Shown in pieces: positions 1 to 13,407 of a stretch of 13,748 bases of DNA (positions within the stretch are counted from its first letter, which is position 1; each line of letters opens with the position of its first letter). The translations under genes and the position numbers were made by a program. Where the stretch lies: the NCBI GenBank assembly GCA_945901035.1, contig CAMDKN010000014.1:1-13748 (forward strand), written 5' to 3'. The notes beneath the pieces were generated by a model. It searched no databases. It saw only the letters and a list, made by a program, of their open reading frames with translations, and was not told the origin of the DNA. This stretch comes from Gulosibacter massiliensis (lineage in GTDB: Bacteria; Actinomycetota; Actinomycetes; Actinomycetales; Microbacteriaceae).

Positions 1-1058
1 AATCGCGCATGCTCGATTTTCTCCGCGACAAAATCGACAGCATCGGTACCGCCGCCTGCCCGCCGTATCACCTCGCCGTTGTCATCGGCGGGACCTCGGC
101 CGAATACGCGCTCAAAACCGCGAAACTAGCGTCCGCGCATTATCTCGATGATCTGCCCCTGCACGGTGGCGAAATCGGCAATGGTTTCCGAGATGTGGAT
201 TTCGAACAGAAGGTGTTCGAGATGACGCAAACGCTCGGCTTCGGTGCTCAATTCGGCGGAAAATACTTTTGTCACGATGTCCGGGTGATTCGCCTTCCGC
301 GACACAACGCGTCGCTTCCCATCGCCATTGCGGTGTCCTGTTCGGCGGACCGTCAGATTCTGGCCACCATCAATTCGGACGGTGTTTTCATCGAAGAACT
401 CGAGCACGACCCCGCACGCTTCATTCCAGAAACGGGGTTGGAGGCAATCGAGAATTCATCACCCGGCGTTCCCGTCGATCTCCGTAAGCCGATGGACGAG
501 ATTCGACGCCAGCTGTCCGAACTCACTCTCGCAACCCGCGTGATGTTGACGGGAACGATGATCGTCGCCCGCGACCTCGCTCACTCAAAGATTCGGGAGA
601 GAATCGAGCGAGGTGACGGTATACCGCAGTACATGATCGACCACCCGGTGTATTACGCGGGCCCGGCCAAGACGCCCGAAGGGCTCCCGACGGGTTCGTT
701 CGGTCCGACGACCGGTGGACGAATGGACACCTACGTCGAGCAATTCCAAGCGTTGGGTGGCTCGTTGGTCATGTTGGCCAAAGGAAATCGTTCCTCTCTA
801 GTCACCAAATCGTGCGACACACACGGCGGTTTTTACCTCGGATCGGTTGGGGGTCCAGCAGCGCTGCTCGCTCAAGACAGCATCACGTCGATGGAGGTGA
901 TCGACTTTCCCGAACTGGGAATGGAGGCCGTCCACAAAATCGAGGTCGTCGATTTCCCCGCGTTCGTCGTCGTCGACGACAAAGGAAACGACTTCTTCAA
1001 CAAAGAAACACGTCTGCTGCTGAGCCTGAGCAGAACCCGCACCCTTGATGACGCGTGA
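1..1058 (+). CDS. fum: Class I (Fe-S) fumarate hydratase, C-terminal part
   Basis: This gene interconverts fumarate and L-malate in the TCA cycle, in the cytoplasm. The frame is open from base 3, so the true start lies upstream; the ATG at 9 is internal. About 349 residues remain of a family whose E. coli FumA/FumB members have about 548. From memory, the match to FumA is nearly colinear: [43 protein letters not shown], a [12 protein letters not shown] stretch, [45 protein letters not shown] and a [10 protein letters not shown] end. The cysteine in VSCSADR (codon 339-341) corresponds to the last of the three 4Fe-4S ligands; the other two would lie upstream. The ending is intact. It lies 24 bp before the DUF1844 gene on the same strand, with no terminator seen between them, so the two are probably co-transcribed. 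Confidence 0.95.
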
Positions 1059-1082
1059 CCACATCCAACCCGAAAGGCTCCC

Positions 1083-1421
1083 ATGACTGACGCCCCACAG
1101 AACGACCACGACGCCGCTCTCGACATCGCCGATGTGGCCGCGGTCGAGGTGCTTCAAGGGGTCGCCGTTCACCTCATGAGCGCCGCCGCCGTCAAGGTGG
1201 GACTGGCCGAGGACGTCGAGCCGGACCTGGCCGAAGCACGCATGCTCATCAACGCGCTGGCTGGGTTCATGACCGCCGCCGCCCCCGAACTGGGTGATCA
1301 CCACGCGCGGCCGCTGCGCGACGGACTGCGATCGTTGCAGCTCGCGTTCCGCGAGGCATCGGTGATTCCCGACGCATTGGGCGCCGGTCCTGGTGAAAAG
1401 TGGACGGGCCCTGTCGTCTAA
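1083..1421 (+). CDS. DUF1844 domain protein
   Basis: Small protein of 112 residues and unknown biochemical role. Residues about 18-92 form the helical DUF1844 core (VAAVEVLQGVAVHLMSAA, then LAEARMLINALAGF, then LRSLQLAFREAS). The tail PGEKWTGPVV is typical of actinobacterial members, which are commonly found near hisA/priA-sseB and infC. The ATG at 1083 follows a GAAAGG ribosome site at 1072-1077 with 5-nt spacing. The gene sits just after fumarase and converges on the sseB copy with only 16 bp between the stops. No signal peptide or membrane segment is visible. A fossil of a second copy's C-terminus lies at 5099-5131. The family call is from memory of its pattern; no function is claimed. Confidence 0.85.
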   Translation: MTDAPQNDHDAALDIADVAAVEVLQGVAVHLMSAAAVKVGLAEDVEPDLAEARMLINALAGFMTAAAPELGDHHARPLRDGLRSLQLAFREASVIPDALGAGPGEKWTGPVV

Positions 1422-1437
1422 CTGCGAAACAGACAGT

Positions 1438-1956
1438 TCACCTGCTGAGTGTCAACGTGAGTGCGTCAACCTGCGACGTGAATAGCTCGCTCCCCGACAC
1501 GCGTGCCTGAACCTGGTCAATGACCGCGCGAACGGCCTCGGGGTCTAGATCGGCCACAATTGTCAGGCTCAGGCTGACATCCGAGCCAGCACCCGTCGAA
1601 CGCGGGTCACCCGCAATCACGGTGACATCGTCGAGGTGCTCGACATCGGCGAGGAGTACACGGGTTTCGGTGAGGAAATTGGGCGACTCCCACGGCGCGA
1701 GGTAGTCGACCCCCTGCGCCATTGCCCACACCGCCGGCCGGCGAATCACGACCGAATCTGTTCCGGGGTTCACGACGATGCGATCGGTGTGTTCGCTCGC
1801 GGCGGCGAGGGCGACGCGTTGGGGGTCAATCGGGATGGGACGCGCCTCGGCGTTCCAGTTGTTCCTGGCGGCCGCCGACGTGAAAACAGGAATCACCTTT
1901 TCCCCGCCCGGTCCAGCAACGGTCACAACCGAGAGTTCCTGGATCTTGTCTTCCAT
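1438..1956 (-). pseudogene. 5'-truncated second copy of sseB
   Basis: 172 codons starting MEDKIQELSVV match residues 79-250 of the intact sseB at 5473-6225 with about 17 substitutions over the first 168 residues (about 90% identity). The N-terminal 78 residues are missing. Similarity to the intact copy stops exactly at the internal ATG (1954-1956), and an in-frame TAG lies two codons upstream (1960-1962), so nothing is fused to it. No ribosome site precedes the ATG. The frame has no stop or indel, so it is either a recent truncation or a still translated C-terminal fragment. Only its tail differs clearly (LTLSR against LTRI). It stands convergent to DUF1844 with 16 bp between stops, probably the ancestral position of the sseB 3' end. 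It lies 145 bp downstream of the glycosyltransferase pair and could be read from that transcript. Confidence 0.85.
1451..1956 (-). repeat. 506-bp direct repeat, copy A (sseB 3' part)
   Basis: Aligning by eye with 5483-5988 gives 506 bp in both copies without any gap and about 52 mismatches (about 90% identity), in the same orientation. Mismatches thin out toward the cargo side: the 166 bp from 1791 to 1956 hold about 9. Similarity ends abruptly after base 1956 (ttaactacc here, against cacggggtt at copy B). Confidence 0.9.
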
Positions 1957-2101
1957 TAACTACCGAAACCGAAGGTTTTAGACTCCAGTCCCGACTGCAG
2001 GTGGCGGGTGGTAAATCTCGGAGACACAATTCCTGAAACAACGCGGGTTGCTAAACAATTTTTGCGACATTACGTCTATTTCAATTGCGCTCTCTTCCCT
2101 G
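1957..2101. other. Non-coding stretch at left edge of cargo
   Basis: 145 bp between the truncated sseB copy and the stop of the GT-A glycosyltransferase. I see no gene, tRNA or recombinase site. Weak hairpins occur (AAACC-GAA-GGTTT at 1966-1978; an imperfect 8-bp stem at 1983-2000), but none is followed by a convincing T-run. Confidence 0.6.
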
Positions 2102-2977
2102 TTAGGCGAACGACCACGCCTTTGGAATTGAGTGTAGGGAGTTCGCATCTTCTAACTCATTTCGATACCAACACCAAATGTGGGCGATTTCCTCGCAAAA
2201 GGATGTTTTCGCCATCGAGGCCTCAAACCCCATACCTGGGCCTTTAGTGAAATGAAACATTCGCAAAGGCACCCCGTTAACGAGCACGCGACCATCTTGA
2301 CTGAAGGTGAGAGTTCTGGCGTGTAGGTTCCAATGCGCATGATTTACTCCCGGGTCTGGGCAAATTGCAGCGGACGGGAAAAAAATCGGGACAAGATTTC
2401 CCCATTTTTGATCGGTGAACAAACCGTCCGAATGTCTTTCAAAACTGTACTTGCTAATCCTCGAATCCCACCATTTTGCAAACTCAAAACCAACGCTGTC
2501 AGGTGCCACCGCGAAGCAGCCAAAGTTAAAAACGCCGTATTTCAGTGACTCGATTTCTTCCAACACCATTGTTTCCGTCTCACTTGGCACCAGCTGATGG
2601 GGTGTGAGCGCAATCGATGACTGAGTGGCTAAATCGGATAAGTCATTGAGGTCTGAAAAAATAGCCACATCCGGGTCAAGGTAGATGACTGTCTCTACCC
2701 CCCTTGCCGCGAGTAGATGAAGTAGGGCCGCACCCTTGACAGAAGTGCTCGCTTCAACAACCGTGTAAATCTTTGCTTGCGCAGCAAAATCTGGAACGAG
2801 ATCTTCGACAAGTATGATCTGGTCTATTCCCGAATCAAGTAATAGCAATTCAGGTGGAATCGTCTTTTCGACTAAGACCAACGTGAAATGGGCTGTCTCG
2901 TGGCGTCTGACTGACCTCGCGAGAACCAAAACCTGGTTCAAATAATTCAAGTTCGCCACGGTGAAAATTGACCGCAC
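2102..2977 (-). CDS. GT-A type glycosyltransferase (GT8-like)
   Basis: 291-residue predicted nucleotide-sugar-dependent glycosyltransferase for surface polysaccharide. Visible motifs are an N-terminal FTVANLNYLNQVLVLARSV (residues 5-23), the metal-binding DxD within IYLDPDVAIF (DPD at 101-103), VFNFGCFA (149-156), DQKW (189-192), HWNLHAR (215-221) and FHFTK (241-245). The set FNxGFxA/DQKW/WNLHxR/FHFS marks a GT-A group often found in capsule and rhamnan clusters. No membrane segment is seen, so it is probably cytoplasmic or peripheral. The GTG start at 2975-2977 shares its G with the TAG stop of the upstream GT4 gene, and a strong GAAGGAG ribosome site lies at 2984-2990 with 6-nt spacing, so the two are translationally coupled. 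The acceptor and sugar cannot be told. Base composition is lower in GC than the his genes. Confidence 0.85.
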   Translation of the reverse strand: MRSIFTVANLNYLNQVLVLARSVRRHETAHFTLVLVEKTIPPELLLLDSGIDQIILVEDLVPDFAAQAKIYTVVEASTSVKGAALLHLLAARGVETVIYLDPDVAIFSDLNDLSDLATQSSIALTPHQLVPSETETMVLEEIESLKYGVFNFGCFAVAPDSVGFEFAKWWDSRISKYSFERHSDGLFTDQKWGNLVPIFFPSAAICPDPGVNHAHWNLHARTLTFSQDGRVLVNGVPLRMFHFTKGPGMGFEASMAKTSFCEEIAHIWCWYRNELEDANSLHSIPKAWSFA

Positions 2978-4887
2978 TACCCACTCCTTCCAGACACCCC
3001 GGGAGTGAGTCCAGAAAACCTGAACTCAAGCGCGGGACGCCCTGCGTTCTGTTTGATGAAATCTCGAATCCTCGATTCCAAAGACACATCATCGAGTAGG
3101 TCGTCAAATCTGTTGTAAGCAATCAAGTAACCCTGTTGTGATGCAGAGTCCACCAAGTTTCCCGAGAAGTTATTGGAAATTATGGGAAGTCCAGCTTCCA
3201 TCGCCTCATAGCCGACAAAATGAAACGTTTCCGGCCACACCGGCCACGAAAAAACAACATCGATGTTATTTCGAATGAGCTTCCGCCGAAGAATTTCTCC
3301 GTTGACAGATGACCTCACGTGAACCCTCGTAATTCCCTCGTAATTATTGACGATCTCTGAGACTCCAAAGAAGAAGAAGTCAAAAATCTCGGAGTGTCTG
3401 GAATTAACTAGCGCCAAAAATTCGAGCCATCCTTTGGAAGGACTCGGATGGCCCACAAATGCGATTCTTAGTTTACGATTTTCGCGGGTTTTTTGGGCTT
3501 GGGTCGTTCTCGTGGTGGATTCCAATAACTCCCCGTGGGGCAAAACCTCAATCTGAATTTCAGCCGGATTCGAACCTTGGTTCATGACATTTCGGGCGGC
3601 CACAGACGGAGAGTAAACACTCCAGGCGAAAGCCCCCAGGAGCTCTTGGGCGTCTTCGACGTGACGAACTCTGTCCTTTCCGTGCACACAAAGTGAGCAG
3701 ATTGGAGAATTCAGAGGAGGATCACCGCAAAAAGTGACATTGTTTAGCAACAATTGAGGGCTCGAGCACTTTAACGCATAATCATGGATAAACCAGATTA
3801 GGGTTCGAGGGTTTAGTTTTTGAATGATGGAAACTAGCGTTTCCTTGCTGTGACCATAAACGGAGTGCATCGTAACGGTGCTGACATCCTCGCTGTTTAA
3901 CCCCTGCTGGAGTATCGTTATCAGCTTAGATAAATTAAAGGAACCCTTTATTGCCGTCCCGTTGAGATTGAGTGCAAGGTCAACTTCTTCAGAAGAGTCA
4001 CGCATCCTGATGAGTTCGACACTCGGGTAAACCCAAAGGTAATTGATGTTTTGAGACGTAAAAAAGGAGTTTTCGTATTCTGCTGCCTTTTGAATGCCTC
4101 CTACCGATGTCGTGAAGTCGCAATGGCCGAACGCGACGACTGTCTCACCGGACCCGGCTAGTAGCAACTTCTTCATTTGGGAAATAGCGCCCCGAAGATC
4201 AGCCGCTGGCCTGGTTTTCTTTTTTGCGGCTGATACCTCCATGACCTTGGTTCGGGTTTGACCGAAAATTCTTCGAGCGCGTGACTCTGGATAAGATTGG
4301 GATAACTCCTCTGCTTTGACTCGAGCCTCGAACTCCTTGGAGGGCAGTCTTCCTTCCTCAAATCCGTTAGCGACGAAATGCTGGAAGGGCTGGAACCCCG
4401 CGGCTGCCACGTCGGGGTAAGTGCGAAGGTAATACTCCTCATCGAACCAACTCGTCAGTGTTGTGTTGGCCGGCACTCCCAACCGAGATTCATGAACCCT
4501 TTTGAATAATTCCTTCAAATCCACAGGCCTACCTGAAACCGCCATCAATCTAACCAATAGTGGAGCAAAAGCCGGTGAAAAGTAACTCGAATACTTGTCT
4601 ACCAAATTTTCAATTGTGAAATCAGCACTCGACATTGTCGTGCGATTCTCGCTTATTCCGTGACGAGCGTAATGAACTAACGGGTTAGCTCCAGAGATGA
4701 AAACATCTTCGTGCAGCAAAAGATAGCCGTAAGTCGAGAATTTTCTCGAGGGATCTAGACCAAGCCTCCAACCAGACTTGAGGTAATGTTCAGCGAGCCT
4801 CGAATCTCTGACCTGTTCTGAACCAATCTGGTTTCTGTAGAAATCTTTTTCGAAAAAAGTCTCGGGAAATGTTTGGTTTCGCTTCAC
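2977..4887 (-). CDS. GT4-family glycosyltransferase with N-terminal repeats
   Basis: 636 residues. The C-terminal half is a GT-B retaining glycosyltransferase: FGHCDFTTSVGGIQKAAE (253-270), HDYALKC (368-374) followed by a cysteine group (C387, C397, C400), LPHGE (449-453), AFVGHPSPSKGW (476-487) and the donor-site WPETFHFVGYEAMEAGLPII (551-570). The first about 185 residues hold up to three copies of a repeat whose clearest unit is WFDEEYYLRTYPDVAAAG...HFVANGFEEGR (147-180). Earlier, more diverged units are about 12-43 (FEKDFY...HYLKSGWRLG) and 53-82 (YGYLLLHEDV...HYARHGISENR). This repeat is known from other glycan-cluster glycosyltransferases and its role is unclear. Start: GTG at 4885-4887 with an AAGGA site just upstream. 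First gene of a two-gene operon with the GT-A enzyme, which it overlaps by 1 nt. Confidence 0.88.
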   Translation of the reverse strand: MKRNQTFPETFFEKDFYRNQIGSEQVRDSRLAEHYLKSGWRLGLDPSRKFSTYGYLLLHEDVFISGANPLVHYARHGISENRTTMSSADFTIENLVDKYSSYFSPAFAPLLVRLMAVSGRPVDLKELFKRVHESRLGVPANTTLTSWFDEEYYLRTYPDVAAAGFQPFQHFVANGFEEGRLPSKEFEARVKAEELSQSYPESRARRIFGQTRTKVMEVSAAKKKTRPAADLRGAISQMKKLLLAGSGETVVAFGHCDFTTSVGGIQKAAEYENSFFTSQNINYLWVYPSVELIRMRDSSEEVDLALNLNGTAIKGSFNLSKLITILQQGLNSEDVSTVTMHSVYGHSKETLVSIIQKLNPRTLIWFIHDYALKCSSPQLLLNNVTFCGDPPLNSPICSLCVHGKDRVRHVEDAQELLGAFAWSVYSPSVAARNVMNQGSNPAEIQIEVLPHGELLESTTRTTQAQKTRENRKLRIAFVGHPSPSKGWLEFLALVNSRHSEIFDFFFFGVSEIVNNYEGITRVHVRSSVNGEILRRKLIRNNIDVVFSWPVWPETFHFVGYEAMEAGLPIISNNFSGNLVDSASQQGYLIAYNRFDDLLDDVSLESRIRDFIKQNAGRPALEFRFSGLTPGVSGRSG

Positions 4888-4932
4888 TGTTGTCCTTGAA
4901 TAATTTTCTGCTGCGCGGAGACCCGCCCGACG

Positions 4933-4959
4933 ATATTAGTCTCTCATAACATCCGTCAA
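4933..4959 (-). promoter_or_regulatory. Candidate promoter of the glycosyltransferase pair
   Basis: Reading the minus strand: TTGACG (4959-4954), a 15-bp spacer, and TAATAT (4938-4933). The -10 lies about 45 bp before the GTG start. The boxes are good but the spacer is shorter than the usual 17, so this is tentative. Confidence 0.35.
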
Positions 4960-5098
4960 GCCTACGCTGGCTTTTTCTCAATTCCTCAACCTGCGGTTGT
5001 GGATTTGCCACAGATGTTGTTCCTGCACCGTTCCGCTACGATTTTCACGAGGGATGTCAAACGCCCGCGGACAACGCACCATTTTCTCGGCTTCAACA
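4960..5098. other. No intact gene; right edge of left cargo
   Basis: Nothing coding is supported here. A small perfect hairpin TGTGG-ATTTG-CCACA lies at 4998-5012. In the frame of the DUF1844 fossil the reading just upstream (about 5026-5098) may be a badly decayed continuation of DUF1844 (a VPLRFSRGMS-like stretch against LQLAFREAS), but this is too weak to annotate. The boundary between cargo and duplicated flank must fall in this stretch or just before 5099. Confidence 0.4.
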
Positions 5099-5131
5099 CC
5101 AGGCGAAGAGTGGACGGGTCCCGTCGTCCAA
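5099..5131 (+). pseudogene. Fossil of a second DUF1844 C-terminus
   Basis: Encodes PGEEWTGPVVQ, aligned with PGEKWTGPVV-stop of the intact gene (1389-1421). 27 of 33 bases are identical. Of the six changes, four are silent third-position differences, one changes Lys to Glu, and one turns the TAA stop into CAA. This pattern indicates real descent from a DUF1844 gene from another strain or an old duplication, not chance. It faces the intact sseB as the intact DUF1844 faces the truncated one, but 341 bp lie between it and that sseB stop instead of 16. Confidence 0.75.
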
Positions 5132-5241
5132 TTTCGGATTAGACGCTTACGATTACGGCATGACAATGAACGAGCATGGAGAATCTGAAGGCAACACCGC
5201 AGCGTGTGAGTGCGCTCTTGATCCCGCAAATGCGGTGATGT
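5132..5241. other. No recognisable gene
   Basis: 110 bp between the DUF1844 fossil and the surface-protein fragment. Short open stretches occur in several frames, but none continues the sorting-signal frame past the TGA at 5236-5238. It may be decayed sequence of the lost surface-protein gene; I cannot show this. Confidence 0.4.
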
Positions 5242-5394
5242 GTGTGCGATCACAACCCCGGCGGCGACAACGAACCTCTCGCCCAAAGTGGACCGTCAGA
5301 ATTCTTCGGGAACGCACTTAGTCTTGCCGGTGGGATTGCCCTCATTGTCGGCATGGCCATCCGGTTCATGAAGCGTAAAAACCGCTTGGTCTGA
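5242..5394 (+). pseudogene. Orphan C-terminal cell-wall sorting signal
   Basis: The plus frame ending at TGA 5392-5394 has the layout of a sortase-substrate C-terminus. There is a Gly/Pro/Asp-rich linker (DHNPGGDNEP from 5248), the pentapeptide LAQSG (5278-5292; an LPxTG/LAxTG-like motif with Ser for Thr), then a hydrophobic segment (ALSLAGGIALIVGMAIRF) and a basic tail (KRKNR) five residues before the stop. No body of the protein remains: an in-frame TGA is at 5236-5238. A GTG at 5242 could in principle start a 50-residue product with no signal peptide. It reads as the 3' remnant of a surface-anchored protein gene. The alternative is a small single-pass membrane peptide, but no ribosome site was seen. 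Confidence 0.6.
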
Positions 5395-5453
5395 TCGGAC
5401 CGTCTCCGTCGAACCGATCGTGGTTCCGCGAGGGCTCGATGACGTGGCGTCAA

Positions 5454-5495
5454 CACTCACGGTGACGCGTACCTAAATTCGCGTCAACGTGAGTG
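5454..5495. repeat. Inverted repeat spanning the sseB stop
   Basis: Arms CACTCACGGTGACGC (5454-5468) and GCGTCAACGTGAGTG (5481-5495) pair at 14 of 15 positions, with a 12-nt loop holding the sseB stop codon (5473-5475). No T-run follows in either direction, so it is not a classical intrinsic terminator; it could still act as an mRNA 3'-end structure. The truncated sseB copy keeps most of the right arm but lacks the left arm. Confidence 0.6.
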
Positions 5496-6225
5496 CGTCA
5501 ACCCGCGACGTATACAGCTCGCTCCCCGACACGCGTGCCTGAACCTCGTCAATGACCGCGCGGACGGCTTCGGTGTCCAGATTGGCCACGATGGTAAGGC
5601 TCAGACTGACATCCGATCCAGCGCCCGTCGAACGCGGGTCACCCGCGGACAGGGTGACATCGTCAAGGTTGGGAACATCGCCGAGGAGTAGACGTGTTTC
5701 GGTGAGGAAATCGGGCGACTCCCACGGCGCGAGGTAGTCGACCCCTTGCGCCATCGCCCACACCGCCGGTCGACGCAACACGATTGAGTCAGTCCCCGCG
5801 TTAACGACAATGCGATCGGTGTGTTCGCTCGCTGCGGCGAGGGCGACGCGTTGGGGGTCAATCGGGATGGGACGCGCCTCGGCGTTCCAGTTTTTCATGG
5901 CCGCCGCCGACGTAAAAACAGGAATCACCTTTTCCCCGCCCGGTCCAGCAACGGTGACGACCGAGAGTTCCTGGATCTTGTCTTCCATCACGGGGTTATC
6001 GGCGTCGAAGTCGTCTCCCGCGTGCGCGACGAGCGGAATGAGAAATCGGTTGGTGGCGAACGCGGCAATCAGCGCGGAATACGTCCCGGAACCGCTGCGC
6101 CACGCGCCCAACGCCTCGGAAACGTCGGGCGGAGTCTCGCCACTATCCGCCGCGTGTGGATTGGGTTGAAAGGTGCGCCCCTTCCACGGAACCCCGGCGG
6201 AGTCGGTGTGGTGGTCGTGGGTCAT
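5473..6225 (-). CDS. sseB: SseB-family protein
   Basis: 250-residue protein of the SseB family (named for enhanced serine sensitivity in E. coli). The biochemical role in actinobacteria is not established. The ATG at 6223-6225 (MTHDHHTDSAG) is preferred over an in-frame ATG at 6315, because it begins 4 bp after the hisA stop whereas the longer form would overlap hisA by 86 bp. Landmarks: residues about 35-70 with an FATNRFLIPLVA strand, MEDKIQELSVVTVAGPGGEK (79-98), VIPVFTSAAAMKNWNAEARP (99-118), the RVALAAASE helix, RRPAVWAMAQG and YLAPWESP, all typical of actinobacterial SseB proteins encoded downstream of hisA. Last gene of the hisB-hisH-hisA-sseB run. Its residues 79-250 are duplicated at 1438-1956. 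Confidence 0.88.
   Translation of the reverse strand: MTHDHHTDSAGVPWKGRTFQPNPHAADSGETPPDVSEALGAWRSGSGTYSALIAAFATNRFLIPLVAHAGDDFDADNPVMEDKIQELSVVTVAGPGGEKVIPVFTSAAAMKNWNAEARPIPIDPQRVALAAASEHTDRIVVNAGTDSIVLRRPAVWAMAQGVDYLAPWESPDFLTETRLLLGDVPNLDDVTLSAGDPRSTGAGSDVSLSLTIVANLDTEAVRAVIDEVQARVSGSELYTSRVDALTLTRI
5483..5988 (-). repeat. 506-bp direct repeat, copy B (inside sseB)
   Basis: Partner of 1451-1956: same orientation, no gaps, about 52 mismatches in 506 bp by eye. Beyond base 5988 this copy continues into the rest of intact sseB. The two copies lie 4.03 kb apart and could recombine to delete the glycosyltransferase cargo. Confidence 0.9.
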
Positions 6226-6229
6226 GGCG

Positions 6230-6964
6230 TCAGTGGCCGTCCGCAACGGCGAGGGCTTCGCGCAGTGTGAACGCGCCGGCGTAGAGGGCTTTACCCAGGA
6301 TTGCACCTTCGACACCGAGGTCGACGAGTTCGCGGATGGCGGCGATGTCGTCCAGTGTCGAAATCCCGCCGGAGGCGATCACGGGCCGGTCGGTTCGTTC
6401 CGCGACGTCCCGCAACAGGTCTAGGTTCGGACCCTTCATCATGCCGTCCTTGGTGACGTCGGTCACTACATAGCGACTGCACCCGTCGGCGTCGAGTCGC
6501 GCGAGGACGTCGAACAGGTCGCCGCCCTCCTCGGTCCAGCCCCGTGCCGCGAGTGTTGTTCCCCGAACGTCCAGTCCCACCGCCACGCGGTCCCCGTGTT
6601 CCGCGATCACCTTCGCCGTCCACTCGGGGTTTTCGAGAGCGGCGGTTCCGAGGTTTACTCGGCGCGCTCCTGCGACGAGGGCTCGGTCGAGCGACTCGTC
6701 GTCCCGAATCCCGCCCGACAGTTCGATGTTCATCGACCCCGACAATTCGTCGACCACGCGGCGAATGACGGCGGTGTTTTCGCCGCGACCAAACGCCGCA
6801 TCGAGGTCGACGAGGTGCAGCCACTCGGCGCCCTGGTCGAGGAAATTCCGCGCCGCCTCCAGCGGGTCGCCGTAGGCGGTTTCCGTGCCGGCGGCTCCTT
6901 GTGTCAGGCGAACGGCCTGGCCGTCCGCGACATCAACAGCGGGAAGGAGGATGAGTTTGGGCAT
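6230..6964 (-). CDS. hisA: Phosphoribosyl isomerase A (HisA/PriA)
   Basis: Isomerises ProFAR to PRFAR in histidine biosynthesis. Actinobacterial members (PriA) often also perform the TrpF step of tryptophan synthesis in genomes that lack trpF. 244 residues, full length for this (beta/alpha)8 barrel. Seen: [14 protein letters not shown] with the first catalytic Asp at 11, [10 protein letters not shown] (49-58), ELSGGIRD (81-88), GTAALENP (106-113), the VGLDVRG strand, AARGWT with R141/W143 (the Arg/Trp pair that PriA uses to bind both substrates), VTDVTKDGM (167-175; second acid), ASGGIS and [16 protein letters not shown] start at 6964, 12 bp after the hisH stop, with only a weak ribosome site; it ends 4 bp before sseB. 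Dual PriA function is inferred from lineage and the RxW pair. Confidence 0.95.
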
Positions 6965-6976
6965 GGCGTCTTTCGG

Positions 6977-7615
6977 TTAGAGCGACTGGATCCAGTTGCG
7001 CAGAAGCCGAAGCCCCGCCTCGCCGGATTTCTCGGGGTGAAACTGGGTTGCGGTCAACGGTCCGTTTTCGACGGCTGCGATGAAGCGCTCGCCGTGGGTG
7101 GCGAAGGTCACACGCGGCGGGGCAAACGCGCCGTACGCCTCGAGTGTCCAATCGGTCGCGGCGTAGGAGTGCACGAAATAGAACCGTTCGGTTTCGACGC
7201 CCGCGAACAGGACGGAATCCGGTGCCGCGTCGACCGTGTTCCATCCCATGTGCGGCAGGATCGGTGCGTTTAGTTGAACAACGGTCCCGGGCCACTGCCC
7301 GAGCCCCGCGGTGTCGAGCCCGTGTTCGACCCCGCGGTCGAAAAGGATCTGCATTCCGACACAGATTCCCAGCACGTGTCGGCCGCCCGCGAGTCGCCGT
7401 TCGATCATTTCGTCACCGCGCACGGCTCGAAGTTGTTCCATCACCGCACCGAACGCACCGACACCGGGGACGACGAGCCCGTCAGCGTTGGCAATCTCTT
7501 CGCGGTCGCGAGTGAGTGTGACATCGCCACCGGCGGCGGCGAGAGCCTTGACCGCCGAGTGGACGTTTCCCGACCCGTAGTCGAGGACGGCAACCGACGG
7601 GCGGTCAGCCGCCAC
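6977..7615 (-). CDS. hisH: Imidazole glycerol phosphate synthase, glutaminase subunit
   Basis: Hydrolyses glutamine and channels ammonia to HisF, together making IGP and AICAR. 212 residues, complete. Triad-type glutamine amidotransferase: oxyanion strand PGVGAF (50-55), nucleophile C85 in GICVGMQ, and H193/E195 in [10 protein letters not shown]-terminus [13 protein letters not shown] is typical. GTG start at 7615 directly abuts the hisB TAA stop (0 bp gap), indicating translational coupling. The partner hisF is not in this window; in actinobacteria it commonly lies apart from or further along the his genes. Confidence 0.96.
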
Positions 7616-8224
7616 TTAGAGGGCGCCCTTGGTCGACGGGATTCCCGTGACCCGCGCGTCGCGCGACACCGCCGTGCCGAACGCCCGCGCGAAAGCCTTG
7701 AATTCCGCTTCGGCGATGTGGTGCGGGTCGCGGCCGTCGAGCACCGTGATGTGGACGGTCAGGTCAGCGTTGAGGGCGATCGCCTCGAACACGTGCCGTA
7801 CGAGTGACCCGGTGAAGTGCCCACCGATTTTGTGGAGGGCGAAACCCTCGGGTTCGCCGCTGTGCACGAGATACGGGCGTCCCGAGATGTCCACGACGGC
7901 CCGGGCGAGAGCATCGTCCAGCGGAACGTGCGCATCGCCGTAACGCGTGATGCCCGACTTGTCGCCGAGAGCCTCGGTAATTGCTTGGCCCAGTGAAATC
8001 GCGGTGTCTTCGACCGTGTGGTGGATGTCGATGTGCAGGTCGCCCGTGGCCTTGATCGTCAGATCACACAGCGAATGGCGGGCGAACGCGGTCAACATGT
8101 GGTCGTAGAACGGAACACCGGTGTCGATGGTGGACTGCCCCGACCCATCGAGGTCGAGAAACAGTTCAATCGACGATTCGGACGTCTGGCGCGAAATCGT
8201 CGCGGTGCGGTGGGTGGCGCTCAC
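7616..8224 (-). CDS. hisB: Imidazoleglycerol-phosphate dehydratase
   Basis: Dehydrates IGP to imidazole acetol phosphate, the substrate of HisC. 202 residues, complete, monofunctional (no phosphatase domain). Manganese-binding and signature motifs: FYDHML (39-44), [10 protein letters not shown] (66-75), RHVFEAIA (143-150), [16 protein letters not shown] (166-181) and the C-terminal PSTKG (196-200). GTG start at 8224, with no purine-rich ribosome site but a TAGAAT -10 element ending exactly 6 nt upstream, which suggests leaderless translation. In an intact operon hisC would precede it; here 4.6 kb of sugar genes lie between them. Confidence 0.96.
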
Positions 8225-8307: not shown

Positions 8308-9444
8308 GTGTCCCTTCGTTTCACACATCCGTACATTTCCTCCGCAGAGTTGGATTCGGTTCGTCGCGTAATCGAATCGGGGGTTACCGGCGGGGACGGG
8401 CCATTTACCCTGTCCGCCGCGTCACGCCTCACCGAAATGCTCGACGCTGCACACGTCGCAATAGTGTCGTCCGGAACAGATGCCGCGGAACTGGCGGGAA
8501 TTGTGGCGGATTTCGGTCCCGGTGACGAAGTCATCGTGCCGTCGTATCAATTCCCCTCGGCTGGACTGTCTGTCGCTCTTCGAGGGGCGACGCCCGTGTT
8601 CGTCGATGTCGATCCCCGCAACGGGAACATTGATGTCGAGCAGGCTCGCGCCGCCGTGACATCGAACACGCGGGCGATCACCTTTGTCAACTACGCCGGC
8701 GTATCGGCGGACACGGCCACAATTCGACAGATTGCGAACCAACACGACCTGATTGTGATTGAAGACAATTGCCATTCTCTGGGCGGTACTCATGCAGGTG
8801 AACCGATGGGCCGATGCGGAGACCTGGTGCTGCATTCGTTCCACGCGAGCAAGAACATCGCGTGTGGCGAGGGCGGGGCGCTGGTTGTCAACAATCCGAA
8901 ATTCACCGAGCGAACCGAAATCGCCCGCGAAAAGGGAACCAACCGCAACCGTTTCCTGCGCGGCGAGGTCGATCGTTACACGTGGGTCGATGTGGGTTCC
9001 AACTATCTGCCCAGCGACGTGCAGGGCGCGATGCTGGATTCGCAGCTCGCGGACTACGACATCATTCAGGGGCGGCGCATGTCCGCGTGGGCTTCGATGA
9101 ATGGCGGAATCAGCGAATGGGCGGCCAACTCGGGCGTTTCGGTGATGGACGCGGGAGTCGGCAACAACCACACCGCACACCTGTTGTTCGTCCTTATGCC
9201 GAACCAGACTCAACAGCGGGCACTCATCGAACACCTCTCGTCCCACGGTGTCCCATCCGCAACTCACTTTCAGCCGTTGCATTCCTCCGAAGCGGGTGAG
9301 CGTCGCGGGCGAGCGTTCGATTCGGGCGAGAACTCGACCGCATTCGCCTCACGAATCGTGCGCTTACCGATGCACGCCAATCTCGAACCCGCCGACGTCG
9401 ACCTGATCATCGACAGTGTCACGTCGTTCGAGGTACGCGCCTAG
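8308..9444 (+). CDS. WecE-like nucleotide-sugar aminotransferase (DegT family)
   Basis: PLP-dependent transfer of an amino group from glutamate to a dTDP- or UDP-4-keto-6-deoxyhexose; likely product a 4-amino-4,6-dideoxyhexose. 378 residues, complete. It resembles E. coli WecE along its whole length: GDGPFT (29-34), SSGTDAAELA (54-63; PLP phosphate site), GDEVIVPSYQFPSAG (72-86), VNYAGV (127-132), VIEDNCHS (150-157), SFHASKNIACGEGG with the internal-aldimine lysine K182, REKGTNRNRFLRGEVDRYTW, the GSNYLPSDVQGAML segment, HTAHLLFV and HFQPLHSS. GTG start at 8308; the nearest purine-rich stretch, GAGGTGG (8286-8292), is 15 nt away. Divergent from hisB, convergent with the BKACE gene, sharing the palindrome CTAG (9441-9444) for both stops. 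No dTDP-glucose 4,6-dehydratase is in the window. Confidence 0.92.
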   Translation: MSLRFTHPYISSAELDSVRRVIESGVTGGDGPFTLSAASRLTEMLDAAHVAIVSSGTDAAELAGIVADFGPGDEVIVPSYQFPSAGLSVALRGATPVFVDVDPRNGNIDVEQARAAVTSNTRAITFVNYAGVSADTATIRQIANQHDLIVIEDNCHSLGGTHAGEPMGRCGDLVLHSFHASKNIACGEGGALVVNNPKFTERTEIAREKGTNRNRFLRGEVDRYTWVDVGSNYLPSDVQGAMLDSQLADYDIIQGRRMSAWASMNGGISEWAANSGVSVMDAGVGNNHTAHLLFVLMPNQTQQRALIEHLSSHGVPSATHFQPLHSSEAGERRGRAFDSGENSTAFASRIVRLPMHANLEPADVDLIIDSVTSFEVRA

Positions 9445-10295
9445 CGACCCAGGACGACTGTTCGGTACTCGGCCGGACTCATGACCCGACGGCCCGCTAC
9501 GTCGACAGCGCGGTGAACGCGTTCCACGAGGGCGGAATTGGTTGCCAATTGATCCCGTCGATGGTCGAGATAGATTCCGTCTTCGAGGCCAACTCGAACA
9601 CCGCCACCGGCAGCAATTGCCATCATGGTTGCGGTGACCTGCGCGTCACCCAGCCCAGCCCCGCTCCAATGAGCGCGGGGTGGGAGGCGGTCGATCGCCA
9701 ATCCGAACTCCGCCGGCGTCGCTTGAATCCCCGCGATGTTTCCGACGAAAATGTTGGCGGGGAAATCGCCGATCAAAATACCTTCGCGCTGCAGAACGTG
9801 CGCGAAGTTGACCATCCCCAGGTCGAAGATTTCGAGTTCGGGGACAATGCCGCGGTCGCGCATGATTGTCGCCAACGCGCGAATTGTTTCGGGTGAATTC
9901 AGGGACGCTCCGTCCAGGAAATTCAGTGACGACATTGTCAGCGACGCAACCTCCGGCTTGATGTCGCCATCGAGCGCAAGAACGTCGGCGCGCTTTTCCA
10001 ACTCGGAAAAGTGTCGTCCCGACGTCGACACATTAATCACGAGTTCCGGATGGCGCTCTCTAATTCTGGTGATGATGTCGGCATAGACATCTCGATTCCA
10101 CGTGGGAACACCGTCGTCATCGCGCGCGTGAAGGTGGACCGCCGAAATTCCGAACGACACAGCGGACGAGACGTCGTCGGCAATCTCGGCGGGTGAAATC
10201 GGAACGTGAGGCGTCATGGCTTTTGTCGGGATCATTCCCGTGGGCGCCAGCACCACCGGGACCGGCGTATCTAGTTGTTCACGCAGTAAGGGCAT
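9441..10295 (-). CDS. Beta-keto acid cleavage enzyme (BKACE, DUF849)
   Basis: Family enzymes use Zn2+ to condense a beta-keto acid with acetyl-CoA, yielding acetoacetate and a new CoA ester; the founder (Kce, lysine fermentation) makes 3-aminobutyryl-CoA. TIM-barrel signatures by residue (GTG numbering): LAPTGMIPTKAMTPHVPISP (20-39), VHLHARD with metal ligands H58 and H60, INVSTSGR (91-98), PEVASLTMSSLNF (118-130), PELEIFDLGM (156-165), RAHWSGAGLG (211-220) and VRVGLEDGIYL with E242, the third expected ligand position. I chose ATG 10295 (284 aa) over GTG 10307: AGGAG lies 11 nt before the ATG, while an AGAGGA run abuts the GTG. It overlaps the acyltransferase gene by 25 bp. A BKACE in a glycan cluster is unusual; substrate unknown. 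Confidence 0.88.
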   Translation of the reverse strand: MPLLREQLDTPVPVVLAPTGMIPTKAMTPHVPISPAEIADDVSSAVSFGISAVHLHARDDDGVPTWNRDVYADIITRIRERHPELVINVSTSGRHFSELEKRADVLALDGDIKPEVASLTMSSLNFLDGASLNSPETIRALATIMRDRGIVPELEIFDLGMVNFAHVLQREGILIGDFPANIFVGNIAGIQATPAEFGLAIDRLPPRAHWSGAGLGDAQVTATMMAIAAGGGVRVGLEDGIYLDHRRDQLATNSALVERVHRAVDVAGRRVMSPAEYRTVVLGR

Positions 10296-10930
10296 GTTGT
10301 GTCCCACTCCTCTGCGGTCTTGATTTCACGGGCCGGATTTCCTGCCACAACACTAAACGAGGGAACTGACTTTGTGACCACCGCGCCCGCACCGATAATT
10401 GCGCCGATGCCAATCTGAAGTCGAGGGAGCACAACGGCGCCCGAGCCGATAAACGCTCCGGCTCCTACGACGATTTCCCCCGCGAGCGTAACGCCGGGAC
10501 CGATGTGGGCGAAATCCCCAATGGACGTGTGGTGTCCGATCGACACAGCACGGTTCACATTCGCAAAACACCCGATTCGCACCTTGGCAGCGATCACGAC
10601 ACCGGCGTTGACATAAGCACCGTGATGAATCTCGACCGAGGTGGCAAGGGTTGACGTGTTGTCGACGAGCGACACCGGGTTGGTCCAACCCGAACGGTGG
10701 ACGGCGTGCGCGGTGGCACTGCGTGCCCCAGCCGATCCGGTACCAAGGACGAATTCGACCGTGCGATCGACCACCGTCGATTCCGCGGTGTATTCGGGCA
10801 GCTCGGAATCCGCGGAGCCAACGTTATCAACACAAATTGGTTGACGTCCTAGACGAATGACCGACTCAACGACATCCCAGACATAAGGGGCCGCAACGCC
10901 AACGATTCGCATCGACCGAGCGTTTCTCAT
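10271..10930 (-). CDS. NeuD/PglD-type sugar acyltransferase
   Basis: Acyl-CoA-dependent N- or O-acyltransferase acting on an amino sugar or sialic-acid-like sugar. 219 residues. Residues 7-40 form a small Rossmann-like sugar-nucleotide domain (RIVGVAAPYVWDVVESVI). From about 88 on, hexapeptide repeats build a left-handed beta-helix: VDNTSTLATSVEIHHGAYVNAGVVIAAKV in outline, then AVSIGHHTSIGDFAHIGPG (128-146), where H133 matches the catalytic His of PglD-type enzymes, and VVLPRLQIGIGAIIGAGAVVTKSVP. The ending VVAGNPARE is normal for the family, but an extra tail with CPYC (213-216) is not. ATG start at 10930 overlaps the stop of the GT61 gene as ATGA. Best guess: acylates the 4-amino sugar made by the neighbouring WecE-like enzyme. 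Confidence 0.88.
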   Translation of the reverse strand: MRNARSMRIVGVAAPYVWDVVESVIRLGRQPICVDNVGSADSELPEYTAESTVVDRTVEFVLGTGSAGARSATAHAVHRSGWTNPVSLVDNTSTLATSVEIHHGAYVNAGVVIAAKVRIGCFANVNRAVSIGHHTSIGDFAHIGPGVTLAGEIVVGAGAFIGSGAVVLPRLQIGIGAIIGAGAVVTKSVPSFSVVAGNPAREIKTAEEWDTTCPYCVNN

Positions 10931-12822
10931 GGCAACTTCTCGAGTGCGCGTCGGACTTTCGCGGGATCGATCTCATAGTTTCGCGAAGTGCCGGCTCGGA
11001 ACGCCGTGATGTGATACAGCGCCGAGTCCCGCGCTGCAAGAACCGGATTGTGGTACGTCTCGGCCCGATCTTTGTGGAATTCAGGTTTGTTCTGCACCAT
11101 AACGAGCCGTGAGCCGCTTGGCATAAACATGGACCAGGTAAGGGCGCTTCCCTGCTCCCCCAGCATGTCGGTCGTTGACGTCACCACCTCGATCTGCTCG
11201 TCGAGGCTCAATTTTTCCGGAAAAACGGTTTCGTATCCGAATTCTTCGGCGAGCTTGGACAGCTCTTCGCGATTCGCACATCCTCCGCGCTCGCCCGACT
11301 CACTGTCGCGGGCAAAATAAACCTTCCGGGGCGACGCGTCTGGAGTCTCGGGTGCGAATTGCGTCACGAATTCGTTCAAAGTGTGCGGATCCGACCGGGC
11401 GGAACGCGATTCCGGTTGCAGGTGTGTGGTGACGATAAGATCGGGCACGCGCACCAGGTGCTCGGAAATCATGGGCGAGACCCGTGCGATGCGTTGAGAA
11501 GAGGAACCGCAACGTTCCAGCAATTCGGTATCGTCATATTGTAATTCCCCCGCGATTATCGTCATCGAATCGTCAAACGTTGACAGTGCAGCGACTCGGG
11601 GTGCGATCTGCAGCAGCCAATGCCCGAATCCCTTTAATCGAGTCAATGTCAGACCCGCGCGTTCCGAAACCTCGGATGTCACCCAGCCGTCGATGTTAAA
11701 TTTGTAATCAGGCGTTCCGAAATACGGGCCCGCGAGCAGGGTTCCGTCCTCGAGCATCACCGCGCCATTGGGCGCAACGATCGCGTTTTTTACCGAGATC
11801 AACCACGGCCCAATCGATTTTTCGCGCAAAACCTGCGGATCCTGCGTTCGCCAGCGGCCATCCGCGAAAACCCGGTGATTTTCGACCGTGGTGTCAACGA
11901 CGGTGACGTCGGGGCGCGAAATGATCTCGACCCCCCTAGGAAGACGCGAGCCGTTTCGCAGAGCGGAATCGATGTCGAACTGATCGCTCTGGGTGAATCG
12001 GCCCCGGGGGCGCGAGGACGGGCCGGTGTGGTCAGCCACGCGGATTGTGGCCGACGGACGGGCGAAGGTAGATAGAGGTTGAAGCGTCTCTGACTCGAGA
12101 GTGACGAACGCTGCCGTCTCGACCGCGCGGGCCAGTTTCGCCACGGTCATCCGGTTCACCGCGAGCAACGTCGCACCCGACGATTCGTGGGCAAATCGCG
12201 AGTCCACCATTGCTGGTGGCGTGACACCCACACCCAGCTTTACGTCGGACACCAGGTACACCTGCCCGGACGATTCCCGCTCGTCTCCCTCAAAGAGTTG
12301 CGCAAACTGCCGCACGCTCGTGTCCGTCGATTCGGTGCCGGGAATGCGCGCGAACACAGCCGAACCGACCTTGTAAGCGGCGCCCCGCGAAATCAGCACG
12401 CCACCAGAACTGACCCCGCACCGGGCGAAGACCGGTCCGAGGGCGAACGGTCCCGAATTGGCGAAGACGTTCAGCCCTGGTTTTTCCCTGCCGAGAGAAG
12501 CAGCGCGTGGGCCAAGGGAGGACACGACCTCCATCATTGAATCGTGATGACCCAGGACAAAACCATGTTCACCGTCGAGGATTTTCAATTCAGTCTCGGG
12601 GAACCGGCGCCCACCAAGACCAAACTTTTCGCTCACAATCCATCTACCGGCGGCGCGGACCGACCCGTCCGGAAAAACCGTCGCGTTGGAGATCGAAATC
12701 ACTGATGGGCCGAGCTCGTCCTCCGAAACGACGGTGATGAACGACGGCCACCGTGTCGTTCCGTCGAGAGACAGCGATTGGATGCGCTGCAGCGCCCGTC
12801 GAATCCACCCAATTTTCGCCAC
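10927..12822 (-). CDS. Tandem GT61-like glycosyltransferase, first domain degenerate
   Basis: 631 residues. The C-terminal domain (about 338-580) has the GT61/DUF563 pattern: LISVKNAIVAPNG, GFGHWLLQIAPRVAAL (398-413, the H-W motif), RKVYFARD (499-506), a REELSKLAEEFGYETVFPEKLSLDEQ run, GEQGSALTWSMFMPSGSRLV (555-574). Residues 38-265 repeat the same order in weakened form: VISISNATVFPDG (41-53), HGFVLGHHDSMMEVV (86-100), QVYLVSD (187-193), VNRMTVAKLARAVETAAFV (222-240), FARPSATIRV (253-262). There the G-H-W and EQGSALT motifs are lost. Predicted role: sugar transfer in surface glycan synthesis; acceptor unknown. No signal peptide or clear membrane helix. GTG start with TAGAGT 6 nt upstream, so probably leaderless; first gene of the GT61-acyltransferase-BKACE operon. 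The start lies 9 bp past the hisC fragment's stop. Confidence 0.82.
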   Translation of the reverse strand: MAKIGWIRRALQRIQSLSLDGTTRWPSFITVVSEDELGPSVISISNATVFPDGSVRAAGRWIVSEKFGLGGRRFPETELKILDGEHGFVLGHHDSMMEVVSSLGPRAASLGREKPGLNVFANSGPFALGPVFARCGVSSGGVLISRGAAYKVGSAVFARIPGTESTDTSVRQFAQLFEGDERESSGQVYLVSDVKLGVGVTPPAMVDSRFAHESSGATLLAVNRMTVAKLARAVETAAFVTLESETLQPLSTFARPSATIRVADHTGPSSRPRGRFTQSDQFDIDSALRNGSRLPRGVEIISRPDVTVVDTTVENHRVFADGRWRTQDPQVLREKSIGPWLISVKNAIVAPNGAVMLEDGTLLAGPYFGTPDYKFNIDGWVTSEVSERAGLTLTRLKGFGHWLLQIAPRVAALSTFDDSMTIIAGELQYDDTELLERCGSSSQRIARVSPMISEHLVRVPDLIVTTHLQPESRSARSDPHTLNEFVTQFAPETPDASPRKVYFARDSESGERGGCANREELSKLAEEFGYETVFPEKLSLDEQIEVVTSTTDMLGEQGSALTWSMFMPSGSRLVMVQNKPEFHKDRAETYHNPVLAARDSALYHITAFRAGTSRNYEIDPAKVRRALEKLP

Positions 12823-12834
12823 GCGCGCACTCTA
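12823..12834 (-). promoter_or_regulatory. Leaderless-type promoter of the GT61 operon
   Basis: Minus strand reads TAGAGT (12834-12829), GCGCGC, then GTG. The TAG of the -10 is also the stop codon of the hisC fragment. Same geometry as at hisB and hisC; no -35 recognised. Confidence 0.45.
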
Positions 12835-13407
12835 CCCGACGTGAGAAATTCGCGCCATCGCGTCGAGGAACGCGGCGGCGATGGCGTCGAGCGCGACACC
12901 CGTGCCGGTCGGGTTGTTGGGGGCGCAGAACACGGTGATGTCAGGTTTGTGGGCTCGGATCGCGGCGACGGCGATGTCAGGTGTGATGGCGAAATCAGGA
13001 CCGCGTTCGGCCGTGACCCACGCTGTGCCGGTGCCTTCGGCGAGCAGCGGATACATCGAATAGGTGGGCGGGAATCCGAGCAGGCTTCGGCCCGGCCCAC
13101 CGAACGCCTGCAGAATCTGTTGCAGGACCTCGTTCGACCCGTTCGCCGCCCAGAGGTTGTCGGCGGTGACGTCGCCCCCGACGTATCCGGCCAACGCCTC
13201 CCGCAGAGCGGTGAATTCGCGATCGGGATAGCGGTTTATGTCGGTGAGTGCCTCGCCCAGAGCCCGCGCGATATCCGCCGCGACCTCCTGCGGCACGGGG
13301 TGAGTGTTCTCGTTGACGTTCAGTTGGATCGGGACGTGAATCTGCGGCGCGCCATAGGGCTTTTTTCCGCGAAGGTCGCCGCGTACCGGCAGATCGTCGA
13401 GGCTCAC
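12832..13407 (-). pseudogene. hisC: hisC, histidinol-phosphate aminotransferase, 3'-truncated
   Basis: HisC transaminates imidazole acetol phosphate with glutamate to give histidinol phosphate. Only 191 residues remain of a family usually 350-370 long. Present: LNVNENTHPVP (29-39), the YPDREF region (60-65), AANGSNEVLQQIL (88-99; cofactor phosphate side), GFPPTYSMY (111-119) and FCAPNNPTGTG (160-170). The frame then runs through VALDAIAAAFLDAMARISHVG to a TAG. Missing are the DEAY strand contacting PLP, the Schiff-base lysine (SxSK) and the substrate-binding arginines, so it cannot be an active aminotransferase. It ends 9 bp before the GT61 start, so the sugar cluster appears to have replaced its 3' half. 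Start: GTG 13407 with TACGAT 6 nt upstream. Alternatively the last dozen residues derive from the native C-terminus after an internal deletion. Confidence 0.85.

Follow-up and report, generated by a model that had tools for sequence, protein, structure and literature searches.

How did two probable sugar-transfer genes come to lie between duplicated, cut ends of DUF1844 and sseB in Gulosibacter massiliensis? The arrangement is found in a stretch of 13,748 nucleotides (hereafter the window), which is the whole of contig CAMDKN010000014.1 (C14) of assembly GCA_945901035.1 (G000; 1.2 Mb in 163 contigs, 79.94% complete). A 3.1 kb cargo of two genes (1957-5097; GC content 0.482 vs 0.615 in the remaining window) separates an intact DUF1844 with an sseB end at the left from a DUF1844 end with an intact sseB at the right. 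A first-pass annotation had explained this by single-crossover (Campbell-type) integration of a circular DNA. We propose a modified explanation, to which we give a probability of about 40%: the Campbell-type insertion of a circle of an integrase-element family, perhaps aberrantly excised, that would have borne a diverged sseB end.

The geometry reported at the first pass, with whole outer genes, cuts on the cargo side and 506-bp copies about 10% different, was confirmed. The direct repeat (1451-1956 and 5483-5988) aligns without gaps over 506 bp with 454 identical positions; sseB is truncated on its cargo side at the left, DUF1844 on its cargo side at the right, and the outer copies are whole. 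A short second repeat is the DUF1844 3' end (1389-1434 and 5099-5144; 35 of 46 positions identical, E 0.003 in self-comparison), the copy at the distal end having the form of the displaced target-gene 3' fragment that is expected of a tyrosine-integrase island. As expected of a Campbell-type insertion, the shared segment is directly repeated at both ends of the insert and the outer genes are intact. The arms differ in spacing, the stop codons of DUF1844 and sseB being 16 bp apart at the left and about 340 bp apart at the right. The incoming piece had been taken to comprise only the segment from the DUF1844 tail to Met79 of sseB, which does not fit, since the right arm holds extra DNA; a 120-bp stretch of it is 90% identical to an island of another genome of the genus (G004), where a photolyase-like gene adjoins. 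Ends of an insertion sequence or transposon were considered and rejected: beyond the main repeat, a repeat finder (minimum length 25) returned a single direct pair of 26 nt at 81% and, in inverted orientation, two pairs at 77%.

The two copies of sseB, compared over 171 codons, differ by a dN of 0.062 and a dS of 0.318 (dN/dS 0.19). Other sseB pairs yielding a ratio gave dN/dS values of 0.10-0.35, most of them with dS above 1 and saturated. The copies look like alleles that stayed functional while diverging in distinct lineages. Searched against proteins, copy 1 found 346 relatives, 120 of which were listed; among the matches listed, copy 1 has the full-length relatives P0001 (165/172) and P0003 (162/172), and copy 2 has P0005 (168/171 over the 3' part). 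The functional type of divergence, together with separate full-length relatives for each copy, implies that one sseB end was imported, in keeping with the earlier suggestion that the incoming arm came from a related strain. P0001 itself appears by eye to be a mosaic, with a copy 2-like middle part and a copy 1-like end, hence recombination between strains seems to affect sseB ends. There was no support for copy 1 decaying as a pseudogene: of 57 differences polarised on the relative G009, 15 fell to copy 1, 24 to copy 2 and 18 were ambiguous. A scan of the contig collection with sseB returned two loci, none from a strain of the species of the window, in a collection from which near records may be left out.

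The junction of DUF1844 and sseB was then compared across 15 genomes of the genus, with sseB found in 10, DUF1844 in 11 and both on one contig in eight. The junction is a genus-wide insertion hotspot, being empty in two of the eight (G010 and G011) and occupied in six (G000, G001, G007, G008, G009 and G013). The empty convergent site that the first-pass annotation had named as support, if present in relatives, is found, with the same gene order, in G010, where the stop codons of DUF1844 and sseB abut (sseB runs past the contig end), and in G011, where the two genes overlap. The inserts are diverse: one AMP-ligase-like gene in about 1.5-1.7 kb in G007, an insert of the same size range in G001 (AMP-ligase-like as judged from its first bases alone), a collagen-like gene in about 1.4 kb in G008, two AMP-ligase-like genes in 4.4 kb in G009, and 11.6 kb with FAD enzymes, a nitrilase, an alcohol dehydrogenase and permeases in G013. 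One island protein of G009 and three of G013 were tested against Pfam; the other island genes were named by eye. DUF1844 and sseB lie on separate contigs in G004 and G006, and G005 has DUF1844 only.

Duplicated flanks without cargo, which the first-pass annotation had named as a refutation and which would speak for duplication before insertion, gave no accepted case in 12 regions of 10 relatives. In G007 (L020, 8000-12500) a 121-bp exact direct repeat has one copy over the 3' end of sseB; its copies are separated by 100 unresolved bases and it was therefore set aside as a probable assembly overlap. A DUF1844-tail-like piece just before sseB in G004 is a weak case, with about 22 of the 59 matched bases outside sseB. 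To the left of DUF1844 the window is also rearranged, with a fumarase gene where G009 has infC (named by eye); the fumarase gene is present in two of the 15 genomes, in G007 on a different contig from DUF1844. No infC was found beside DUF1844 in the genome of the window itself, an incomplete assembly in which the infC-rplT region of G009 matched 149 bases near its end only.

What makes this junction a target may be written in the last codons of DUF1844. Gene 3' ends, like tRNA genes, also serve as targets of integrase islands, and directly at the DUF1844 stop codon there are forms of a 24-mer, TAACTACGGATCAGACGGTTGGGG, which is one base off the anticodon-loop to T-stem part of tRNA-Arg(ACG). 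These forms have two mismatches in 24 in G004 and in G005, four in G013, six in G006 and eight in the window; by eye, no such form stands at the stop codon in the other six DUF1844-bearing genomes. In the assignment of the DUF1844 3' end and tRNA-Arg(ACG) as attachment (att) site, TAACTACGGA is the predicted recombination stretch. A 22-mer searched at two mismatches has 22 occurrences in 13 of the 15 genomes (none for the reversed pattern): nine coincide with a tRNA-Arg(ACG) gene called by ARAGORN, one (G012) is apparently a tRNA gene cut by the contig end and 12 are non-tRNA loci, in eight of which the first bases of the motif are the stop codon of an open frame with 60 codons or more, a count without chance control. 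Model R1, built from 14 such sites, none of them from the window, matched 35 places in 13 of the 15 genomes with an E of 1 or less, and its two best matches in the window are both DUF1844 ends (Table 1). A gapped scan of the + strand of 1-7000 had its best starts at 1419 (score 24) and 5130 (22), followed by 1957 and 838, tied at 20; 0.73 matches scoring at least 20 are expected by chance. The island of G013 has a further att-like copy inside it. A FAD-dependent oxidoreductase gene, 87-92% identical to that of the G004 island, is found within about 1 kb of the att-like motif in G011, G009, G002 and G005 (L090, L091, L092 and L093).

These att-like sites may act as att, and an integrase element is present at the junction in G006. 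There the order is DUF1844, an att-like copy, a helix-turn-helix (HTH) gene (below the Pfam cut-off), a phage integrase, a helicase/PLD gene and an Eco57I-type methylase. The sseB contig of G006, to which the DUF1844 contig probably joins, has an exact att copy about 25 bp from sseB. The first-pass annotation had seen neither a recombinase nor an att repeat; this stands for the cargo, which is without integrase, but not for the site, where degenerate att-like sequences are present and a tyrosine recombinase is found in G006. The G006 integrase has matches at E up to 0.001, mostly distant, in 89 of 150 genomes of the family, and its closest relative outside G006 is encoded by the genome of the window itself, on contig C161 (64% identical). 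The C161 element has the same left end, which here lies at the stop codon of a gene resembling decarboxylases (its two NCBIfam matches fall below cut-off), and is apparently a restriction-type element of the same family. Behind the decarboxylase-like gene, C161 (L131, 2-3161) carries a cytosine DNA methylase, the integrase and an HTH gene. The exact left-end 18-mer TAACTACGGAACACACGG occurs only at the G006 and C161 places in the 15 genomes. A tRNA gene was found at 13 of the 20 integrase loci given (three tRNA-Arg(ACG), the others tRNA-Thr, Pro, Tyr and Met), and the integrase relatives outside the genus that adjoin tRNA-Arg(ACG) are those of G073 (43%), G021 (32%) and G040 (30%).

The left joint of the cargo resembles the end of these elements. 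The cargo starts with TAACTACCGAAACCGAAGGTTTT and aligns, with gaps, from base 1 to the element left ends found in G006 and on C161. The score of 28 obtained with the G006 left end was reached by two of 5480 window 50-mers, both at the 1957 joint, and by none of 2000 shuffles, and the score of 24 obtained with the C161 left end by 19 of 5480 (at four places including the joint) and by eight of 2000 shuffles. This is suggestive, not proof, of an element left end at the sseB/cargo joint.

We propose that the DUF1844 stop codon, as a mimic of the anticodon arm of tRNA-Arg(ACG), may be the attachment site of a family of tyrosine-recombinase elements. The incoming circle would have held the glycosyltransferase cargo together with a segment of a diverged strain, comprising a DUF1844 3' end, att, a small open reading frame (ORF) and the 3' part of sseB. 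The likeliest such circle would be a wrongly excised element, in which the left end was joined to codon 79 of sseB and the element's own att was not closed, comparable to specialised-transducing circles. Recombination with the resident sseB would then have stranded the old 3' part of sseB as an orphan beside DUF1844 and restored a complete sseB whose 5' part is resident and whose 3' part was imported; the cargo no longer has the integrase gene. The hotspot, the divergent functional alleles, the att-like sites and the integrase elements in G006 and on C161 are observed; we infer that there was a circle and that it was aberrantly excised, in which sequence the events took place and which copy is the resident one.

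Several observations weigh against this proposal. A Campbell-type insertion should leave colinear, uniform arms, but here the arms are not colinear, the right arm being about 320 bp longer. The identity of the repeat is uneven (144/150 beside the joint, 151/177 and 161/186 farther off), so a single crossover is insufficient as an explanation, and the DUF1844 tails are more diverged than the sseB arms (11/46 vs 52/506 differences, Fisher p 0.012), which suggests more than one event. Later changes within one arm could also produce the lack of colinearity and the uneven divergence. The truncated form of sseB (P0002) occurs, among the matches listed, in this contig only. Between them, the two cargo genes include no integrase gene, and in G006 the right att is without a DUF1844 tail. 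The left-end 18-mer, at two mismatches, has 11 matches, with two chance matches for the reversed control in the 15 genomes. At the 1957 joint the match requires several gaps, three further window positions score as high with the C161 end and the att-consensus score ties with that of a place in the fumarase gene at 838; model R1 did not detect this joint, and its evidence is therefore the gapped alignment only. The right joint (cargo/DUF1844 tail, 5098) shows no element-end signature, and the att-like site next to it is the weak one of Table 1 (E 0.087). Of the Campbell-type integration as first described, the geometry, the empty sites and the divergent alleles stand; the simple make-up of the incoming piece does not, and the structure could arise by routes other than plain homologous recombination of an unrelated circle.

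One such other route is homology-facilitated illegitimate recombination, in which a linear fragment of an occupied site (cargo, DUF1844 remnant, small ORF and sseB) would have paired at the resident sseB/hisA and been joined illegitimately at its other end to codon 79 of sseB; linear DNA that recombines homologously at one end and illegitimately at the other would leave the locus just as the insertion of a circle does. Naturally competent species and Escherichia coli conjugation are the settings in which this mechanism has been described (PMC3240628), and it has been proposed for the orphan gene remnants of Vibrio type VI secretion system (T6SS) arrays (PMC5361080). It needs a single new illegitimate joint (1956/1957), the DUF1844 remnant being already in the donor, and it accounts for the unequal divergence of the two repeats. 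An element-end-like sequence at the illegitimate joint is, however, not predicted by it, and we regard this route as rather unlikely. It is quite doubtful that ordinary integrase islands accreted in tandem at the DUF1844 att with the sseB fragment as a passenger: the three att-like places in one orientation, the att-like copy within the G013 island and the recurrence of the same FAD gene near att copies in G002, G005, G009 and G011 would suit such accretion, yet the sseB fragment lies behind DUF1844 in the order of the empty site and with near-zero spacing (16 bp), unlike a random passenger.

The possibility that the contig is a chimera, in which the assembler joined two co-occurring strains and so brought both sseB alleles together, is improbable in our judgement. 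The assembly is fragmented and incomplete, each allele has relatives that occur on their own as full-length genes, an assembler could switch alleles within the repeat at identical runs of 59 and 41 bp, and hisC, which lies on this contig too, likewise stops short at the border of a cargo. A switch within the repeat would swap alleles, however, and create neither of the cargo joints; the cargo/sseB joint lies outside shared sequence, 1900-2100 matches only itself and the repeat arm in the genome, and a cargo protein has a 98% identical relative on another contig. Tandem duplication of DUF1844-sseB, with the cargo then entering between the copies and the inner ones decaying, had been named as the main alternative at the first pass and gives the order of the repeats without an outside donor. 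It is disfavoured by a dN/dS within the range of orthologues (dS 0.32), by the closest relatives that each copy has on other contigs and by the lack of colinearity of the arms, and we consider it very improbable.

Both cargo genes are probably glycosyltransferases, as judged from their sequences. The 636-aa protein has relatives of 98, 90, 88 and 83% identity in environmental contigs and short, weak matches to glycosyltransferases; it gave no Pfam family and no NCBIfam or solved-structure match, and its gene is unmatched in the other 14 genomes of the genus. Neither cargo protein had a match in PADLOC. The features of the locus are collected in Table 1, where the name hisH is presumed from the position of the gene.

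Table 1. Position, strand and supporting evidence of the features in and around the duplicated DUF1844 and sseB ends
Feature	Position	Strand	Evidence
Fumarase 3' part (Fumerase + Fumerase_C), left neighbour of DUF1844	3..1058	+	Pfam
DUF1844, intact, left flank	1083..1421	+	PF08899, E 1.9e-13
att-like site 1 at DUF1844 stop codon, degenerate, tRNA-Arg(ACG) anticodon-arm-like	1408..1438	+	model R1, E 5.9e-5
sseB copy 1, last 172 codons, 5' part missing on cargo side	1438..1956	-	SseB profile positions 46-124 of 124
Cargo start resembling left end of the G006 and G000:C161 integrase elements	1957..1999	+	gapped alignment from base 1
GT8-like glycosyltransferase, 291 aa, cargo	2102..2977	-	PF01501, E 1.2e-6
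636-aa protein, probable glycosyltransferase, cargo	2977..4887	-	weak relatives; no Pfam family
DUF1844 3' end remnant, last ~10 codons, stop lost	5099..5128	+	76% over 46 bp to window copy, 96.7% over 30 bp to G010
att-like site 3, degenerate, weak	5118..5145	+	model R1, second-best window match, E 0.087
Small-ORF remnant	5144..5397	+	5144-5261 90% identical to G004 island; remainder by eye
sseB copy 2, intact, 250 aa from Met at 6225	5473..6225	-	PF07179, E 5.1e-20 on longer frame 5473-6315
Right flank: hisA/priA, hisH, hisB	6230..8224	-	hisA by Pfam; HisB by NCBIfam

Farther to the right, a surface-sugar cassette (8308-12822) with GT61, NeuD-like acetyltransferase, BKACE and DegT aminotransferase genes splits hisB from hisC. 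Of hisC (12832-13407), which is broken off at the cassette border, only about the first 180 codons are left; elsewhere in this genome, 80% complete, hisC is matched by nothing but a stretch of 29% identity on C60. Much of the cassette (8309-11979) also follows hisB in G013 (L018/L143), with 71% DNA identity over 3178 bp, which points to a second variable spot inside the his operon.

On a wider scale, we speculate, with little confidence, that streamlined Microbacteriaceae may practise an integron-like exchange: a tyrosine recombinase resident in the genome (here that of C161) would act in trans on integrase-less modules bounded by copies of the tRNA-Arg(ACG) anticodon-arm sequence, and when excision goes wrong, neighbouring core genes would have their ends carried along and exchanged between strains. 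It is an equally unlikely part of the same idea that the copy of the tRNA-Arg(ACG) arm would also supply the stop codon of the upstream gene, and that the cargo would consist of metabolic and surface genes. Bacteria with small genomes may in this way vary their surface-sugar and metabolic genes at one harmless spot, with the recombinase not beside the cargo, and core genes may have their ends reshuffled in the process. The mechanism lends itself to direct testing, since the proposed attachment site is a tRNA mimic at a protein-gene stop codon and a candidate recombinase is encoded in the same genome.

Among the literature matches listed we recognised no paper on this locus and none with DUF1844. 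In integrase islands of tRNA genes, a regenerated target, a displaced fragment and an anticodon-centred att are standard (Islander, PMC4383910). The locus resembles such islands in that the target is whole at one end with a displaced 3' fragment at the other, the att-like sequence is anticodon-centred and a tyrosine recombinase is found in the element of a relative; it differs in the position of the tRNA-Arg(ACG) mimic at the stop of a protein gene, in a cargo without integrase and in the duplication of sseB as well. In Methylophilaceae, repeated copies of the final 20 bp of a tRNA gene mark additive flexible genomic islands; the same paper also deals with tycheposons (PMC10872708). The present case shares with these islands a genome-streamlined aquatic host group and repeated copies of a tRNA piece as island marks, whereas most of the non-tRNA copies start here at stop codons of open frames, in several different genes. 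A tycheposon would have a bordering tRNA gene and a tyrosine recombinase; no tRNA gene was found in the window, and no recombinase among the ten of its proteins tested against Pfam or, by eye, among the other frames. As in Vibrio T6SS immunity arrays (PMC5361080), the incoming cargo leaves a displaced orphan gene beside the new one, but at the present locus the duplication extends to the genes on either side and the joint is element-end-like. The merodiploids of Streptococcus pneumoniae, made by transformation with duplications of about 100-900 kb that use repeats (PMC3784515), likewise combine a tandem duplication with coexisting intact and inactivated copies of a target gene; here the duplication is 0.5 kb with two alleles. 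The locus is distinct from these known kinds in its combination of a tRNA mimic at protein-gene stop codons with the duplicated ends of two core genes.

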